Positions 44,994 to 57,883 of a stretch of DNA of 64,000 nucleotides are shown in pieces. Every line of letters starts with the position of its first letter. Position 1 is the stretch's first letter. A model generated the notes under the pieces. That model did not search any database. It was not told the DNA's origin and was given only the letters and a program-made list of their open reading frames with translations. Both the position numbers and the translations under genes were made by a program. Source of the stretch: Lactococcus cremoris subsp. cremoris NBRC 100676 (lineage in GTDB: Bacteria > Bacillota > Bacilli > Lactobacillales > Streptococcaceae); contig NZ_BCVK01000004.1 in assembly GCF_001591705.1 (NCBI RefSeq), positions 1 to 64,000 of the forward strand, read 5' to 3'.

Positions 44994-47900
44994 TTAATAT
45001 GCTTGAGCAGTTTCTAATTTGGACTCTGTTTCTGATTTTTCAACTGAATCAGAAACTTTGTTCATTCTTTTTTTAGCAGTGGTCATCATTAAACGAATTC
45101 GATTCAATTGATTGACAGCAGAAACTCCTGGGTCATAATCAATCGGCGCAAGATTAGCCCCTGGATACTGACGACGAAGTTCTTTCATCATTCCTTTACC
45201 GACAATGTGATTTGGGAGACAACCAAAAGGTTGAAGACAAATAATATTATTCACTCCTTTTTGCAAAAGTTCAATCATTTCACCAGTAAGGAACCAGCCC
45301 TCACCAGTGTGATTTCCTATTGAAATCACTTCTTCAGTAGAGGATGCAACGTCATAAATTGACTCTATTGAATCAAAACGATTTGATGCCTTCAAAGCTT
45401 TATTCATTGGCTTTTCTAGCATATTGATGATTCCAATAAAGGTTTTAGCCATGAGTTTATTTTTCTTACTAAAGGCAATCTCATCTGCTTTCCAGATTTG
45501 ATTGTATAAACTGTAATTCATAAAACCAATTAAATCAAGAACAACAGCTTCGCCGCCCTCTTCTTCAATAATGGAAACAATATCATTATTAGCAGTTTTA
45601 CTATATTTGACTAAGATTTCGCCGACGACACCCACTCGTGGCTTTTGAATATCAAGAAGTTCAATTTGGTCAAATTCTGCAACGATTTTTTTCATGTTGC
45701 GATAAAATTCAAAGATTGACCCTGATTCTACATTTTTTCGAGCTTTTTCTAGCCATTTTGCATGTAAATCATTGACCGAACCTTCTACTGCTTCGTAGGG
45801 GCGTGTCCGATAGACAACTCGTTCAAACAAATCTCCGTAAAGCACAGCAATCATAAAGCGTGTCAATAATGGAACCGTGAATTTAAAGCCTTTTTCTGTC
45901 CCTTGATTTCCCATTGAGAGAGAAACTACTGGAACTTGCGGGAAACCTGCATCAATCAGAGCTTTACGCAACAAAGGAATATAGTTAGTTGCACGGCAAC
46001 CACCACCGGTTTGGGTCATCATGACGGAGGTATTGTCAAGGTCATATTCTCCTGACTGGAGAGCTTCGATAAGTTGACCGATAGTAATAATGGCTGGATA
46101 ACAAGAATCGTTATTAACAAATTTCAAGCCGTTATTTACAGAAGTATTTGTTTCTGGCAGAGAAACTACATTATAACCTGCAGCAGCAAAAGCTGTATCC
46201 AATAGTCCTTCTTGGTGAATTGGCGACAACATTGGCAAGAGCAGGGTATGTTTTTTAGCCATTTCTTTTGTGAATGCTGGTGTTTCTGGGACTAATTCAT
46301 GAACTTCAGTCGTTGCTTCAATATTGTGACGTGTCCGCTCTGAAACTGCTGCCTTAAGGCTACGCAAGCGAATCCGAACGGCTCCCATATTTGAACCTTC
46401 ATCAATTTTTAGAACGGTATAAAGCTTGTTGTGTCCACGCATGATTTCTTCAACTTGGTCTGTCGTTACGGCATCAAGACCACAACCAAAGGAATTAAGT
46501 TGCACAAGTTCTAGATTTTTATTTTTGCAAACAACATTTGCGGCTGCATAAAGACGACTGTGGTAAACCCATTGATTGACCACGCGCAGACCAGAAACTT
46601 CGGCCAAATGACTGATAGAGTCTTCTGTCAGCACATGGAATCCTTCTTGAGTAATGATGTCAGCAATTCCGTGATTGATTTCTGGATCCAAATGATAAGG
46701 ACGTCCTGCAAGGACAATGGCTTTTTCATTGTTCAAATTGATTTGCATCAGTAAATCTTCGGCTTTAAGACGTAAGTCTTCTTTGAATTTATCCATTTCT
46801 TCAAAACCATGTTGAACGGCAGCTTTTACTTCTTCAAGACTGACAGTAAATCCTTGAGCCGTCAAAGACTTATGGATATTGACTGCCACACCGTCAGGAT
46901 TTGCCAAATTAATAAATGGATGAAGATAATTGACTTGTCCTTCACGAATTTCGTCAATATTATTTTTAAGAACTTCTGGATAAGATTGGACAATTGGACA
47001 GTTGAAATGATTTTGAGCATTTTTTTGTTCTTCTTGTTCAAAAAGAACTGAAGGATAAAAGATAGTTGGCACACCTTGTTTAATCAAAGCCATGATATGT
47101 CCGTGACTCATTTTTGCTGGGTAACAAACAGTATCAGACGGAATAGTTTCAATTCCCTCTTCAAAGAGTTCTTTGTCTGAGCGTGGGCTCAAAAAAACAC
47201 GGAAGCCAAGGTCTGTTAGCATCGTGTGCCAAAGCGGATAATTTTCGTACATGTTAAGCACGCGCGGAATCCCAATCTCTCCACGAGTTTGTTTTTTCTT
47301 ACTTAAACTATGGTAACGGAATAGTTTTTTATATTTATAATCAACTAAATTAACTTTTTTGTCTTTTTTAGCGACTTTAACTTTTGTTGCTTTTTCAGCT
47401 CCACGTTCGCAACGGTTCCCGGTTACAAATTTATTGCCATCATTGAAGACCGTCAGTGTCATTTTACAGTTATTTTCGCAAAGTCCACAGACCATAAATT
47501 CTTTATGAGTGGTAAATTTTTCTAATTCATCAAGCTTTAAAAGCTCTGATTCTTTGTGCGTTTCTTCATTGTCTAAAGAAATCAAAGCACAACCATAAGC
47601 TCCCATCAATCCGGCAATACTTGGACGGACAACTTCACGTTCAGAAATTTTTTCAAAGGCACGCAATACGGCTTCATTGTAAAAAGTTCCGCCTTGAACA
47701 ACGATTTTCTTATCAAGTTCTTCGGGACGTTTTACCTTGATAACTTTATAGAGGGCATTTTTTATGACACTGTATGAAAGACCAGCAGAAATATCACCAA
47801 CTGTTGCTCCTTCTTTTTGAACTTGTTTAACTTTTGAGTTCATAAAGACGGTACAGCGTGATCCAAGATTTACTGGGTGTTCGGCTAAAAGCGCTTTTTG

Positions 47901-49304
47901 TGAAAATTCACGAACGTCATGTTTGAGCGAATGGGCGAAAGTTTCAATGAAGGAACCACAACCTGATGAACAAGCTTCATTGAGCTGAATACTAGATAAA
48001 GCACCATCACGGATTCGCATGGCTTTCATATCTTGGCCGCCGATATCGAGAATGAAATCAACGCCGGGATTGAAATAATCAGCAGCTTTGTAGTGAGCCA
48101 TTGTTTCAACTTCGCCGTAATCCACGTGAAGACCAGCTTTAATCAAGTGTTCGCCATAACCGGTTACGGTTGATTTGGCAATGTAAACGTCCGCTGGAAG
48201 TTTAGCATAAACATCTTTTAAAATATTAATAACTGATTCAAGTGGTTCTCCGTTGTTAGATCCATAATGGTCATAAAGAATATTTCCCGCGTCATCAATA
48301 AGGACAAGTTTTGTCGTGGTTGAACCTGCGTCAATTCCTAAAAAGGCCGCGCCGTGATGCTCATTGAGTTCTTTATAGCTAGCTGTTGCTTTGGCATGGC
48401 GCGCACGAAATTCATCAAGTTCAGCTTGGTTTTCAAAAAGTTTATCCATAGTATCTTGGGGAATTAAACTATCAGAATCATCAGTTTCCAAACTATGAAT
48501 GAGTTCGGTTGCTGTTTTTTGGCTTGTTTCTTCGTAGAGAGCAGCTCCCATTGCCACAAAAAGTTGTGGATTTTCTGGGAAGATAATATTTTCTTCTTTT
48601 AAATCCAACGTTTCAATGAAACGTTTGCGCAGTTCACTCATAAAGAAAAGAGGTCCGCCAAGAAAGGCAACATTGCCTTTGATTTTTCGACCACTGGCTA
48701 ATCCGGCAATGGTTTGATTGACAACAGCTTGGAAAATACTGGCTGCTATATCTTCACGACGCACTCCTTCGTTCAAAAGGGGTTGAACGTCAGTTTTGGC
48801 AAAAACGCCACAACGTGAAGCGATTGGATAGAGTTTTTCATAGTTTTTAGCTAATTCATTGACACCATTAGCATCAACTTTCAAAAGGGCAGCCATTTGG
48901 TCAATGAAAGCACCTGTCCCACCGGCACAAGTTCCGTTCATCCGTAATTCTTGAGTCCCATTGTCAAAAAAAGTCATCTTGGCATCTTCGCCGCCAAGCT
49001 CAATCATGACATCTGTTTGTGGAATGAATTTTTCGATGGTAATGGATGAGGCAATCACTTCTTGGACAAAGGGAACGTCAATGACTTCTGCAAGTCCCAT
49101 TCCTCCTGAACCGGTAATGGCTAATTCTAAATTTAAATCTCCGTGTTCGGCAATAAAATCATTGAATACTTTAATGGTTGCTGCTTTAACGTCAGAAAAG
49201 TGGCGCTCGTAACGTGAAAAAATGAGTTTATAATTTTCGTCAAAAACGACGAGTTTTACTGTGGTTGAACCAACGTCAATCCCTGTTTTATAAATTTGTG
49301 TCAA
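44994..49304 (-). CDS. Acyl-CoA dehydratase activase-type protein, 1436 residues
   Basis: Two BadF/BcrA-type ASKHA ATPase domains in tandem: GIDVGSTTVKLVVF (residues 8-21) with GGEDAKM and GTCAGGTGAFIDQM, then FLGIDAGSTTTKLVLID (about 322) with DIGGQDMKAM and ACSSGCGSFIETFAHSL. A cysteine motif follows (CGLCENNCKM, about 611), then DUF2229 and a region like the 2-hydroxyacyl-CoA dehydratase subunits (CYPAIITIGQLIEAL, GGGCRATNY, QPFGCLPNHIVGKG). The ATPase cysteine ligands suggest a [4Fe-4S] cluster between domains. No dehydratase genes are nearby; physiological role unknown. The divergent TetR gene may control it. Confidence 0.88.
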   Translation of the reverse strand: MTQIYKTGIDVGSTTVKLVVFDENYKLIFSRYERHFSDVKAATIKVFNDFIAEHGDLNLELAITGSGGMGLAEVIDVPFVQEVIASSITIEKFIPQTDVMIELGGEDAKMTFFDNGTQELRMNGTCAGGTGAFIDQMAALLKVDANGVNELAKNYEKLYPIASRCGVFAKTDVQPLLNEGVRREDIAASIFQAVVNQTIAGLASGRKIKGNVAFLGGPLFFMSELRKRFIETLDLKEENIIFPENPQLFVAMGAALYEETSQKTATELIHSLETDDSDSLIPQDTMDKLFENQAELDEFRARHAKATASYKELNEHHGAAFLGIDAGSTTTKLVLIDDAGNILYDHYGSNNGEPLESVINILKDVYAKLPADVYIAKSTVTGYGEHLIKAGLHVDYGEVETMAHYKAADYFNPGVDFILDIGGQDMKAMRIRDGALSSIQLNEACSSGCGSFIETFAHSLKHDVREFSQKALLAEHPVNLGSRCTVFMNSKVKQVQKEGATVGDISAGLSYSVIKNALYKVIKVKRPEELDKKIVVQGGTFYNEAVLRAFEKISEREVVRPSIAGLMGAYGCALISLDNEETHKESELLKLDELEKFTTHKEFMVCGLCENNCKMTLTVFNDGNKFVTGNRCERGAEKATKVKVAKKDKKVNLVDYKYKKLFRYHSLSKKKQTRGEIGIPRVLNMYENYPLWHTMLTDLGFRVFLSPRSDKELFEEGIETIPSDTVCYPAKMSHGHIMALIKQGVPTIFYPSVLFEQEEQKNAQNHFNCPIVQSYPEVLKNNIDEIREGQVNYLHPFINLANPDGVAVNIHKSLTAQGFTVSLEEVKAAVQHGFEEMDKFKEDLRLKAEDLLMQINLNNEKAIVLAGRPYHLDPEINHGIADIITQEGFHVLTEDSISHLAEVSGLRVVNQWVYHSRLYAAANVVCKNKNLELVQLNSFGCGLDAVTTDQVEEIMRGHNKLYTVLKIDEGSNMGAVRIRLRSLKAAVSERTRHNIEATTEVHELVPETPAFTKEMAKKHTLLLPMLSPIHQEGLLDTAFAAAGYNVVSLPETNTSVNNGLKFVNNDSCYPAIITIGQLIEALQSGEYDLDNTSVMMTQTGGGCRATNYIPLLRKALIDAGFPQVPVVSLSMGNQGTEKGFKFTVPLLTRFMIAVLYGDLFERVVYRTRPYEAVEGSVNDLHAKWLEKARKNVESGSIFEFYRNMKKIVAEFDQIELLDIQKPRVGVVGEILVKYSKTANNDIVSIIEEEGGEAVVLDLIGFMNYSLYNQIWKADEIAFSKKNKLMAKTFIGIINMLEKPMNKALKASNRFDSIESIYDVASSTEEVISIGNHTGEGWFLTGEMIELLQKGVNNIICLQPFGCLPNHIVGKGMMKELRRQYPGANLAPIDYDPGVSAVNQLNRIRLMMTTAKKRMNKVSDSVEKSETESKLETAQAY

Positions 49305-53673: not shown

Positions 53674-53699
53674 AAAAGAGTTCAATTGAACTCTTTTTT
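53672..53699. terminator. Bidirectional terminator mnmE/MFS
   Basis: A perfect 28-bp palindrome: AAAAAAGAGTTCAA followed by its complement. It overlaps the last base of the mnmE stop and closes the RiPP locus on the minus strand. Confidence 0.92.
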
Positions 53700-54918
53700 A
53701 TTGGCGAAAAATTACTGATAGTAAAAGTAAAAAGACAAGAAGAGCAAAAATAGAAATAATGTAAAATGTGAGAGCAACGCCTATTAAATTTGCCAAAAAC
53801 ACAAAGATAGCTCCACCAAATGGTACTGAAAATGTAAAAATAGTCGTAATTCCTCCACCAATTTTTCCCAAATTTTCCGAAGAAATGTTTTCCATAATGA
53901 GCCGGTTGACTTTAGGGCTTGCTTTGGCGGAAATGTAAGCCAAAGCAAAGAGGAATATCAGAGAAAGCAAACCAAAATGAGTCACCAAAGCTGCAAAAAG
54001 TGCAATCATCAAAAAGGTAGCAATCATTAATTTGGGAAGTTCCCAATCTTTTAGTTTATCCCCCATAATAAATGAGCCCGCGAGCATTCCTAGCATCAAA
54101 ACAACGTTGAAAATCATGATAGCCGTCCCGTAACTGACGGGAAATGGATTAAATTTTAACATTGCCAAGCTGGTCAAAGGCCCAATACCCGCCAAAATAA
54201 AGTTGATAAAAACTAATGAAAAAACTAACACTAAAAAATTTGATGAATTATTTCCAGTGATAACATCACGAATTTGTGAAAAGCTTTCTTTGATATTAAA
54301 TTTGAATTTTTCATCAAAATAAACGGTCTTAAAAGTCAAATTTTTTCGGAAAATCAATAAAAAGAATCCACTAAGTAAATATAAAATCCCATTAATCAAA
54401 ACCACCAAAGAAAAAGACTGGTGAGAAAGAGCCAAAATTGTTACCCCCAAAGGCTGCCCGATAATTTCTATAATAGATGATAGGCCTTGTATTTGCCCAA
54501 AAGCTGGTTGTATCTCCTCTGCGTTTAGATTATTTTGTAAAATTGGTGCGCGTAAACCAGATTTATAGCTGGTAATCAGGTCGGTCAAAATTTTCACACC
54601 AGCTATGCCAAAAAAAGTGATAAAATTTTTCTCCATCATCAAAAAAATCAATAAAAAGAATAATATCGCTTGAATCCAGCTCGCACGAATCATAAAATTT
54701 GCTTTATTTTTTGTTTTATCAGCTAAAAAACCCGTGTAAGCGGCAAATAAAACCGGTAATAACAGGCATATTTCGGCCAACGAAATCATCATTTTTGGAT
54801 TGGGCAAACTACTCGCATAAATCAGAAAAACAATATTAAATAAACTCGTTCCCAACATAGAAAAAATCGAGCTAGACAGCAAGGAAGTAAATGTTTTATT
54901 TTTTCTTAGTAAGTTCAT
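53698..54918 (-). CDS. MFS transporter, candidate peptide exporter
   Basis: 406 residues, 12 hydrophobic segments, MFS fold of the MefA/enterobactin-export type (SSIFSMLGTSLFNIVFLIYASSLP start, YTGFLADKTKNKANFMIRASW between helices 2 and 3). Its ATG overlaps the stop of the LanKC-like gene (ATGA), implying coupled translation. In class III lanthipeptide loci the exporter is often an ABC protein; here an MFS protein is the only transporter. Export or self-protection is inference from the operon. Confidence 0.8.
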   Translation of the reverse strand: MNLLRKNKTFTSLLSSSIFSMLGTSLFNIVFLIYASSLPNPKMMISLAEICLLLPVLFAAYTGFLADKTKNKANFMIRASWIQAILFFLLIFLMMEKNFITFFGIAGVKILTDLITSYKSGLRAPILQNNLNAEEIQPAFGQIQGLSSIIEIIGQPLGVTILALSHQSFSLVVLINGILYLLSGFFLLIFRKNLTFKTVYFDEKFKFNIKESFSQIRDVITGNNSSNFLVLVFSLVFINFILAGIGPLTSLAMLKFNPFPVSYGTAIMIFNVVLMLGMLAGSFIMGDKLKDWELPKLMIATFLMIALFAALVTHFGLLSLIFLFALAYISAKASPKVNRLIMENISSENLGKIGGGITTIFTFSVPFGGAIFVFLANLIGVALTFYIISIFALLVFLLLLSVIFRQ

Positions 54919-56759
54919 AGTTTTCTCCTTAGCTCTTTGGTAAATTTATATCCCTCATAACCTTTTAAAAAGCTTTCTTCATATCTTTTAGTATAAAAAT
55001 TATATAGCTTTTTATTTTTAACAAATAACTCGCAAGTTTTTAACTGTTCATCAGCCCAATACAAATATTTTTTATTTCCAGTTTTCTGATAGAGTATTAA
55101 TAAAAAATATGAAATTCCTGATAACCCTTTCTCAAAATCCATTGATTTTGCAAATTTTACATTCATTCCATTTGCTATTTTAATAATCTGCTTTTCATAT
55201 TTTTCAAAATTATAGATCAGCAAAAAGAGTGCCAAACCACTAGAGCCATTTAATATGTAGGGAGAGTAATGTTTCCCAGATAAATGTAAAAATGAATCAC
55301 TTAATTGTGAAAGTAAATATTCAATTTTTTCATTAATTAATTCATTTTTTTCTAAAATTGATAATTTCCACAAATAACCAGTTAAACCATTTAGTCCTAG
55401 ATGTTCAAATTTATTTTCTTTGATAAATGTGACCAAGTTCTTTGGTTCTTCCAAGTACTCTTTAGAAATATGTAAAAAAATATCTGATTTATAAAAATAA
55501 AGTTTTTTAGAAATTTCTAAAGCTTTTTTTGTAGAACTTCCAGTAAATAAATAAATTAATAAGTCAGAAATATTTGTTTCAACTTCAAATCTCTCAAAGA
55601 TTTTAGCAGCTAAAATAATCGTTTCTTCAAGGCTTCTTTCTTGCTGATTGAACACATTTAATTGCCCAATTAGAAATAAAATCAGCTGACCAACTTTTCT
55701 TAGGTCTTTTTCCGTTTCCGTCAATTTTGACCAAATTTTTAAATAGAATCCTTTTGTTTTTGCAGTAACTTTTTCCAATTCATTAAACTTATGAGCAGAT
55801 TCTAAATCAATAAAATGAATTTTATAAGCTTTGTCAATCAAAAAGTTATCGGGGTGAATATCATCTAAAATTACCATTTTATGATGTGCTTCTCCCAAAA
55901 TTTCAATTAATTGTTTAATAATTTTTGAAAAAATCACTAATTTATTCTCAGTCAGATTATCAAATAAGGAAAATTTGCTTTGAAATTCTCTAAGTGTTTG
56001 TCCATCAATAAACTTATAAACATAATAATGATTAATCCAAGCAGAAAATTTTTCAATTGGTTGTAAAAAATCAGCTGAATTTAACAGCTCACTCATAAAA
56101 AATTCGTTTTCGCGTAATTCTTCTGATTTTAAATTCACAAAAGTTAATATATTGGCCCGACTTTCTTTTACAATTATTTTTTGATTTTTTACAGTTCCAA
56201 AATAAATGTTTCCTCCATTATTTTGTCGGATAATTTTCGTCAAATCTAAATCATTTAACCTATTTTTTTCATTCATTTCCTTATTTTCTTGATAAAAGGG
56301 GTCAGATATCCAAGCCGGTAAATCAAAATACGTTTTTTGAAAGTCTTCCCAAATTTTCCCATTTTTTACGATTGTACATTCATCTATATTTTGAAAAAAA
56401 CCAAATCGATAAAAAACCGTTTTAGAATTATTAAAATTTCTATCGCTTAAGATATAGACCCCCTCAAATTTGACTAAAATCTCTGATAAATCCACTAAAA
56501 TCCTCTCAGTAGCCTTTATATTTTCAGGATAAATGGTAAATAATTTTCCACTTTCTGCTGGAGCTGCAGTTTTAGAAATATTTTCGATAAAATCCTCACG
56601 AGTTGATAGATATTTATAAAATACTTCTTGTTTTGACAAAAAATTTGTTGCTAATCCAAAAACTTCTTCATAACTTTCAATTGTCGCAGATACGTGAATT
56701 TTAAATCCATATTTTGGAAGTTTATAACTTTCTGTTGTGAAATAAGTAAATTTTCCCAT
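54915..56759 (-). CDS. LanKC-like class III lanthipeptide synthetase, short
   Basis: 614 residues. Residues 1-170 match the LanKC lyase part (KLPKYGFKIHVSATIESYEEV; VFYKYLSTRE). A protein-kinase-like domain (about 175-395) shows K198 in IIVKES, the catalytic loop DDIHPDNFLI with D300 and N305, and FIDLE with D318. A C-terminal LanC-like helical part (about 445-614) has GSSGLALFLL and GLSGISYFLLILYQKTG repeats but none of the Cys/Cys/His zinc ligands. Typical LanKC are some 850-900 residues, so the cyclase part is short. AAGGA precedes the ATG. It would phosphorylate and eliminate Ser/Thr of the peptide encoded just upstream. Confidence 0.78.
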   Translation of the reverse strand: MGKFTYFTTESYKLPKYGFKIHVSATIESYEEVFGLATNFLSKQEVFYKYLSTREDFIENISKTAAPAESGKLFTIYPENIKATERILVDLSEILVKFEGVYILSDRNFNNSKTVFYRFGFFQNIDECTIVKNGKIWEDFQKTYFDLPAWISDPFYQENKEMNEKNRLNDLDLTKIIRQNNGGNIYFGTVKNQKIIVKESRANILTFVNLKSEELRENEFFMSELLNSADFLQPIEKFSAWINHYYVYKFIDGQTLREFQSKFSLFDNLTENKLVIFSKIIKQLIEILGEAHHKMVILDDIHPDNFLIDKAYKIHFIDLESAHKFNELEKVTAKTKGFYLKIWSKLTETEKDLRKVGQLILFLIGQLNVFNQQERSLEETIILAAKIFERFEVETNISDLLIYLFTGSSTKKALEISKKLYFYKSDIFLHISKEYLEEPKNLVTFIKENKFEHLGLNGLTGYLWKLSILEKNELINEKIEYLLSQLSDSFLHLSGKHYSPYILNGSSGLALFLLIYNFEKYEKQIIKIANGMNVKFAKSMDFEKGLSGISYFLLILYQKTGNKKYLYWADEQLKTCELFVKNKKLYNFYTKRYEESFLKGYEGYKFTKELRRKL

Positions 56760-56779
56760 AGTTGTTCCTTATAATAAAA

Positions 56780-56800
56780 CCCAAACCTAAAAAGGTCGGG
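56780..56800 (-). terminator. Leaky hairpin between peptide gene and LanKC
   Basis: On the minus strand CCCGACC and GGTTTGGG form an imperfect stem with loop TTTTTA, followed by TTTTAT. Such partial terminators often sit between a RiPP precursor gene and the enzyme gene and give excess precursor mRNA. Confidence 0.55.
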
Positions 56801-56810
56801 TACACTTAGA

Positions 56811-56909
56811 TTAAACTTCCACAATAGGACAATAAAAGGTAATATTAACATCTTCTTCATTTTCAACTTCTTTAGGAAGAAGATTAAGCTCAATCACTTG
56901 TTCTTTCAT
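56811..56909 (-). CDS. Candidate lanthipeptide precursor, 32 residues
   Basis: An ORF too short for usual gene calling, with an excellent ribosome site (AAGGAGG, eight bases before ATG at 56909), stop at 56811. The N-terminal part MKEQVIELNLLPKEVE is leader-like: the IELNLL helix resembles class III recognition motifs of the I-x-L/L-D-L-Q kind. An acidic NEEDV stretch follows. The end reads NITFYCPIVEV. It contains a single Thr (24) and a single Cys (27), and no Ser, so one methyllanthionine ring T-x-x-C is the only possible one. It lies 51 bp before the LanKC-like gene. Confidence 0.7.
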   Translation of the reverse strand: MKEQVIELNLLPKEVENEEDVNITFYCPIVEV

Positions 56910-56992
56910 TTTGAAAACCTCCTTAATTTAATAAATTTATTTTACTGCAAAAAAATATCGATTTTTATCATTTCCTATATATAATAAAAAAA

Positions 56993-57832
56993 TCACAACT
57001 TTTGCTGCAATTTTTTTATTTCTTCGCGATAAATTTTTGCTTTTTCTGGCATAAAGAACGCTTCATAAGTTTTTGCAATACGTTTTAAAATGGTAATCGT
57101 GGCTTGAATATTACCCGACATTTCATACAAATCTGCTTCTTGTATTGCATATGAAATTCCGATTTCGATATTTCCAATCTGGGGAATCCGGACCTTAAAC
57201 TGCTCTAAATAATTTTTCACTTTTTCAGTTTGATTATTATGCGACAAAATATAGATTGCATTTCTCAAAATCATCAGAATTAAATTATTATCTAAATTAT
57301 TTTGCTCTAAAATATTATCCAAATAAAAAACAATGGATTTATTATCAAGTTGCGTTAAGGCAATCGCAAAAAATCGAAGATTTGAGGGTTTCCATTCTTC
57401 TATTTCGTAAAAATAATTTTCTAAGATCTCCTGTTCAATTGTCGTCAGACTTTTAACTTTCCCATAATTAATCAGCATAGATTTTAGTGCAATTGCATTT
57501 AATTGATGCTGTCTTTCATTCGTTTTTCGATATATTTTTCGTTCATTTTCATACAATTTGACTAATTCATCAATTTTCCCAGCCTGTTCTAACCTTCCAG
57601 CTTGCTCAAATAAGAGTGATGAAGCATCATTTGTTAAAATTGCCGAAAATTCATCGATTGAAATATCAATATTTTTAATCAAAGCAAAGAACTTGCCAGT
57701 TGTTAAATCACCCTTTCCACGTTCAAAATGCGAAAGTTGTGAAATTGATATAACTCCTTCACTTGCTTTTTCTAATGACAGTCCTTTTTCTTGTCTTAGT
57801 TCTCGAAAGATCTTTCCAATTTCTTTATCCAT
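56993..57832 (-). CDS. Rgg-family transcriptional regulator
   Basis: 279 residues. N-terminal HTH_3 (GKIFRELRQEKGLSLEKASEGVISISQLSHFERGKGDLTTGKFFALI, about 6-52) and a C-terminal tetratricopeptide-like helical domain typical of Rgg/MutR proteins. Rgg proteins bind small hydrophobic peptides and control peptide and bacteriocin genes. It is the first gene of the RiPP locus, 83 bp upstream of the precursor gene, on the same strand. Its own ATG lacks a ribosome site: TGATATAAT ends six bases before it, so the mRNA is predicted leaderless. Confidence 0.85.
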   Translation of the reverse strand: MDKEIGKIFRELRQEKGLSLEKASEGVISISQLSHFERGKGDLTTGKFFALIKNIDISIDEFSAILTNDASSLLFEQAGRLEQAGKIDELVKLYENERKIYRKTNERQHQLNAIALKSMLINYGKVKSLTTIEQEILENYFYEIEEWKPSNLRFFAIALTQLDNKSIVFYLDNILEQNNLDNNLILMILRNAIYILSHNNQTEKVKNYLEQFKVRIPQIGNIEIGISYAIQEADLYEMSGNIQATITILKRIAKTYEAFFMPEKAKIYREEIKKLQQKL

Positions 57833-57883
57833 AAAATTATTATATCAGAGAATTCAAAAAATTGAACAAAATCATTTGTTTTT

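Follow-up and report, generated by a model that had tools for sequence, protein, structure and literature searches.

A conserved 32-residue peptide beside a short class III-like synthetase in Lactococcus, probable precursor of a minimal lanthipeptide

Nisin ring B (T-P-G-C), one of five rings in a class I lantibiotic, is a four-residue methyllanthionine ring, and in synthetic work such rings close readily without an enzyme. In the class III synthetase ThurKC the lyase–kinase part is inactive alone, the cyclase domain is required even for dehydration, and the F770A and D771A variants still dehydrate but fail to cyclise (PMC10604976). Class III systems are already known in streptococci, where family III 3 has been described (PMC7268733); the existing structures of PneKC and SalKC belong to the same picture. 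The locus considered here lies in 64,000 nucleotides of Lactococcus cremoris subsp. cremoris NBRC 100676 (contig NZ_BCVK01000004.1, positions 1 to 64,000; the window) and encodes a shorter enzyme of this type. The small open reading frame next to the enzyme gene probably encodes the LanA precursor for a minimal lanthipeptide of class III-like type, in which the adjacent short LanKC would build a single ring between Thr24 and Cys27.

The locus is a cassette of four minus-strand genes in the order rgg, peptide, short lanKC, MFS. The first encodes an Rgg-family regulator of 279 aa (56993..57832; Rgg_C 32.9 bits, cut-off 27; HTH_3 36.5, cut-off 23). The synthetase gene (54915..56759, 614 aa) is followed by an MFS transporter gene (53698..54918, 406 aa) whose start overlaps the lanKC stop and which holds the same position in most relatives; its product is presumed to serve in export and/or immunity. 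The cassette as a whole (53677..57861) is shared with plasmid pMRC01, known as the lacticin 3147 plasmid, at 87.6% DNA identity. Homology runs from 21–29 bp outside the rgg start to a point some 21 bp downstream of the MFS stop, with none beyond, and since it ends at those boundaries the cassette has neither a protease gene nor a further peptide gene. No radical SAM enzyme is present among its four genes. Elsewhere in the window, a 1436-aa minus-strand frame with a TTG start (44994–49304) resembles a fused 2-hydroxyacyl-CoA dehydratase activator/dehydratase protein.

The precursor gene (56811..56909, minus strand) starts with ATG and encodes MKEQVIELNLLPKEVENEEDVNITFYCPIVEV, present in a single copy in its own genome. 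The original prediction, which gave no strand, had drawn attention to its AAGGAGG ribosome site; this site lies 8 nt 5' of the ATG on the minus strand (56918..56924) and is identical at the other lactococcal loci. As predicted, the peptide contains a single Thr (T24) and a single Cys (C27) and lacks Ser, so far as the window is concerned; as a trait of the family, this composition is not upheld among relatives. The codons of the putative methyllanthionine ring, T24-F25-Y26-C27, occupy 56829..56840 on the same strand. The peptide matches none of the NCBIfam and Pfam models, and a phage origin for it or the cassette was considered and set aside, the phage collection giving no match.

In-frame orthologues occur in four other lactococcal variants, MKEQVIELNLLPKEVDNEEDIVITFMCPVTGS, MKEQVSELNLLPKEVDNEEDIVITFICPVTGS, MKEQVIELHLLPKEVENEEEVTITLGCPVF and MKQEVLNLNHLPKKINDEEINITFGCPIF. 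The precursor evolves under purifying selection, with dN/dS of about 0.1–0.24 (dN 0.13–0.19, dS 0.67–2.4, over 30 codons) and a dN of 0.02–0.06 in the leader part. Loss of the frame or of the ring residues in close relatives had been named in advance as the observation that would count against the gene; both are kept. Two finer expectations fared unevenly. The aromatic pair proposed within the ring is half right: position 2 is usually aromatic, but Y26 is replaced by M, I or G. In the tail, Cys-Pro-[I/V] is kept but the residues beyond vary (PIVEV, PVTGS, PVF).

Among 18 genomes of the genus, three have the enzyme gene: it is intact in the window, split in G001 and reduced to 75 aa in G005; both decayed loci retain the peptide. 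Fifteen Lactococcus plasmids, including pMRC01, pNZ712 and pUL8B, carry the cassette enzyme. The peptide is found in all 15 and has an annotated feature under it in none, where unannotated means absent from the PLSDB gene table, which is itself incomplete. The variant MKEQVIELNLLPKEVDNEEDIVITFMCPVTGS is carried by pMRC01, other plasmids and two goat metagenome contigs, and MKQEVLNLNHLPKKINDEEINITFGCPIF stands in two tandem copies on plasmid CP129298, where the enzyme is 60% identical. Three goat-gut contigs binned as Clostridia (L011, L012, L013) encode the enzyme at 87–88%; the two that extend to the peptide, L011 and L012, are 99.9% identical to pMRC01 over the cassette and are, by sequence, mis-binned plasmid DNA.

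The short enzyme is also found more widely, in 25 of 335 Streptococcaceae species (23 Streptococcus-type genomes and two of the window's genus). In most of them rgg precedes the enzyme gene and MFS follows it, and the chromosomal sites vary. All 19 streptococcal cassettes that were fully read contain a peptide of 27–32 aa that bears a ribosome site and a C-terminal [T/S]xxC; two further genomes, G083 and G207, were left out of the count (the enzyme is broken in both, and the G207 peptide has TRKC in a longer frame). With the five lactococcal variants added, 24 of 24 cassettes have such a frame in the stretch before lanKC, as against 0.24% of shuffled sequences (300 dinucleotide shuffles per upstream stretch). 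All 26 distinct peptides have [T/S]xxC; the first ring position is Thr in 23 and Ser in three, the second is aromatic in 20, and the third is mostly Lys, Gly or Arg. Several loci show tandem duplication of the peptide. Taken with the purifying selection, the linkage to a LanKC-like enzyme and the unannotated state of the gene in 15 plasmids, this conservation strongly supports the original proposal that a precursor with one T-x-x-C ring had been overlooked.

Longer relatives, with synthetases of 732–790 aa, branch near the short-enzyme clade in an order that is weakly supported, and three of them likewise have single [T/S]xxC peptides (ITIYCPSK twice at L102, FTFKCQIS at L103, SIKCP at L117). 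Across L100, L102, L103 and L117, in Streptococcus and other Lactobacillales, synthetases of 667–790 aa accompany such peptides, with ABC transporters at three loci and cyclase lengths ranging between the short and full forms. Compared with the L-x-L-Q type leader helix of class III precursors, the leader motif is a loose L-x-L type in lactococci (VIELNLLP, VLNLNHLP), VLNLQ and LQKLQEL in the longer-enzyme relatives, and MTxF without L-x-L in streptococci. The loose lactococcal motif and its absence in streptococci weigh against the class III-like reading.

Nine loci (L042, L045, L046, L051, L052, L053, L054, L060 and L096) have a second small gene, of 44–70 aa, that follows the peptide gene and abuts or overlaps the start of lanKC. 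Its product always has T-x-x-C within the first 10 residues (TKYC, TRYC, THYC, TKNC, TKAC, TLSC or TKSC), an occurrence of 0.4–1.5% each by residue shuffling in sequences that are partly related, and ends in a charged, helical-looking part. The gene is absent from lactococci; its product may be a helper, or else a second substrate that carries a follower. At L059 (5007–8887) a 627-aa M13-peptidase-like frame takes the usual MFS place, and an 88-aa acidic, secreted-looking frame precedes lanKC.

The 614-aa enzyme comprises a lyase, a kinase and half a cyclase. Pfam RamC_N scores 119 bits, the protein kinase model is weak, and LANC_like reaches 28.7 bits; the NCBIfam class III LanKC model NF038151 gives 250 bits, below its cut-off of 575. 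A RamC/LanL-type lyase is fused to the kinase, with the catalytic residues kept: lyase K20, H22, K72 and R118 and kinase K198, E219, D300, N305 and D318 do not vary among the 19 short enzymes, which form one clade with 100/100 support. In this clade the kinase has D-I-H, with His two residues past the catalytic Asp; most relatives carry Ser or Gln there.

Among solved structures, ThurKC is the closest. The full-length model is of moderate quality (pLDDT 73, poor over 99–165), and because structure searches with it were filled by kinase domains, the C-terminal part (residues 420–614; 54918..55502, minus strand) was modelled alone. It forms half a LanC fold (pLDDT 81, pTM 0.82) that aligns to ThurKC 530–742 with Z 14.0 over 169 residues at 2.7 Å, in a register that repeats make uncertain. 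The F770/D771 pair of ThurKC is missing in either register, and there is no full-length cyclase of about 370 aa with the cyclisation residues. Since ThurKC needs its cyclase domain even for dehydration (PMC10604976), the truncation could impair the enzyme. The lyase–kinase part of ThurKC is inactive alone, however, while F770 and D771 are needed only for cyclisation, so the half domain that is left may have the task of activating the kinase and not of closing rings.

What we infer of dehydration, ring formation, export, regulation and biological role would run as follows. The neighbouring short LanKC would recognise the leader (about residues 1–20); its kinase domain would phosphorylate Thr24 and its lyase domain eliminate the phosphate to leave dehydrobutyrine. 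Addition of the Cys27 thiol would then close a single methyllanthionine ring of four residues, T24-F25-Y26-C27. As the half cyclase is without the residues that ThurKC needs, the ring probably closes spontaneously or with templating only. The cassette encodes no protease to trim the leader, a task that may fall to a housekeeping protease of the host; the MFS protein would export the product, protect the producer, or both. Rgg would control the promoter that lies between its own gene and that of the peptide. Downstream of the precursor, a hairpin ahead of lanKC (56779..56801, minus strand), likely a partial terminator or processing stem, would hold precursor output above enzyme output, in what is presumably a common arrangement. 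It occupies the same place in diverged loci, where its sequence differs; its z is −1.45 in the window, and at three further lactococcal loci it ranges from −2.75 to −3.08.

As to the role of the product, the idea that it is a narrow-spectrum bacteriocin, with the MFS protein acting mainly in self-immunity and export, is a serious one, though we lean somewhat against it. The cassette resides on many mobile plasmids, among them the bacteriocin plasmid pMRC01. LanKC is also often broken beside a sound MFS gene, which would follow if immunity outlasts production; damaged copies occur in G001, G005, pNZ712, CP094477 and some streptococci. Against this, the imbalance of broken genes lies within what gene length predicts, and the product would be very small. 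As proof of immunity the survival of MFS was rejected; the counts are too small, and gene length explains the imbalance. At L009, L010, L078, L074, L050, L053 and L119, lanKC is split, frameshifted or internally deleted with peptide, rgg and MFS still open, in lactococci as well as streptococci. That lanKC is so often lost while the other genes stay intact shows the pathway to be dispensable or social, a point that also weighs against the main reading.

It is less probable, though worth keeping in view, that the mature peptide, modified or plain, is the ligand of Rgg, exported by MFS, taken back up through the oligopeptide permease and sensed within the cell. The idea stays alive because the shared cassette reaches no more than about 30 bp beyond rgg and MFS and contains no other pheromone candidate. 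Nor does any SHP-like frame recur around 15 streptococcal rgg genes; a classic SHP pheromone near rgg was sought at these loci and discarded, the candidates being isolated and non-recurring. The regulator is of the Rgg family, with Rgg_C above cut-off; neither the shared cassette nor the 15 loci showed a recurring adjacent gene for a short hydrophobic peptide. Between rgg and the peptide, directly after the rgg stop, lies the 20-bp element TTTTTTATTATATATAGGAA (56972..56991, minus strand), a possible operator that is identical in four diverged lactococcal loci and has one exact site in the whole genome; the regulator may bind there. An operator shared by all streptococci was considered too, and dropped, as GAATATATTC-like sequences occur in only some loci. 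Against a signalling role, three of the 19 Streptococcus cassettes (L054–L056) are without an adjacent rgg and have a purB-like gene (identified by eye) upstream instead, and the tail after the ring, which would be the signal, is variable. Some Rgg proteins, moreover, are not under peptide control.

Thr24 might instead be dehydrated without ring formation, leaving dehydrobutyrine and a free Cys in the peptide, or the product might be a phosphopeptide. A half cyclase lacking equivalents of F770 and D771 would fit either outcome, but the invariant [T/S]xxC spacing would then have no obvious reason, and we regard both as unlikely. That the frame arose by chance in the 5' leader of lanKC, as its missing annotation in public plasmid records might suggest, is scarcely credible, being contradicted by its occurrence in 24 of 24 cassettes against 0.24% of shuffles, by purifying selection and by the tandem copies.

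If the predicted precursor is what it appears to be, food-grade lactococci harbour a minimal four-gene, plasmid-borne lanthipeptide system that has stood unannotated on well-studied plasmids. It would allow a direct test of whether class III enzymes can do without a full cyclase, of whether a single four-residue ring closes unaided in vivo, and of whether a lanthipeptide can act as an intracellular Rgg signal. A more sweeping proposal, which we hold to be quite doubtful, is that the peptides form the smallest lanthipeptide family, widespread in Streptococcaceae, with one [T/S]-aromatic-x-C ring closed spontaneously beside a synthetase without a cyclase site. The ringed peptide would be the ligand of its own Rgg, and some streptococci would add a second substrate with an N-terminal T-x-x-C and a C-terminal follower.

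In the open-access literature, which our survey covered, class III systems in Streptococcus are described, but no pairing of a half-size cyclase with a single-TxxC precursor was found; a 2026 review of Rgg and RaS-RiPPs does not mention LanKC, lanthipeptides or Lactococcus. The predicted ring shares its four-residue methyllanthionine form with nisin ring B, and two relatives, L052 and L060, have SPGC. The streptococcal RaS-RiPPs controlled by Rgg/SHP (PMC13361665, PMC11002830) also place Rgg beside a cassette that modifies a short peptide, but here there is no radical SAM enzyme, no SHP gene was found, and kinase and lyase chemistry takes their place. The His-butyrine peptides of NorKC (PMC11002830, PMC10206099) share a class III-type enzyme and an atypical precursor, with three Ser/Thr and one Cys; NorKC, however, requires His as the crosslink partner, and the cassette peptides have no conserved His. 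The S. pneumoniae family III 3 (PMC7268733) is likewise a class III system of streptococci but differs in its Sx2Sx3C core and clustered prolyl oligopeptidase (LanPB).

The nearest counterparts are the LanKC enzymes ThurKC, PneKC and SalKC, which have the same fusion of lyase and kinase with catalytic residues, an adjoining precursor gene and no zinc ligands. They measure about 860–870 aa, whereas the present enzymes are 614–658 aa with about half a cyclase, and the cassette has one MFS protein, no protease and a single [T/S]xxC in place of the Sx2Sx3C core. The original expectation of a product simpler than those with labionin is supported: the core has no S-x2-S-x3-C motif, nor the looser S-x2-S-x(2-5)-C. 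Because two class III features, the full cyclase and the SxxSxxxC core, are thus missing, the cassette is not filed here as a standard LanKC system, though it would work like one.
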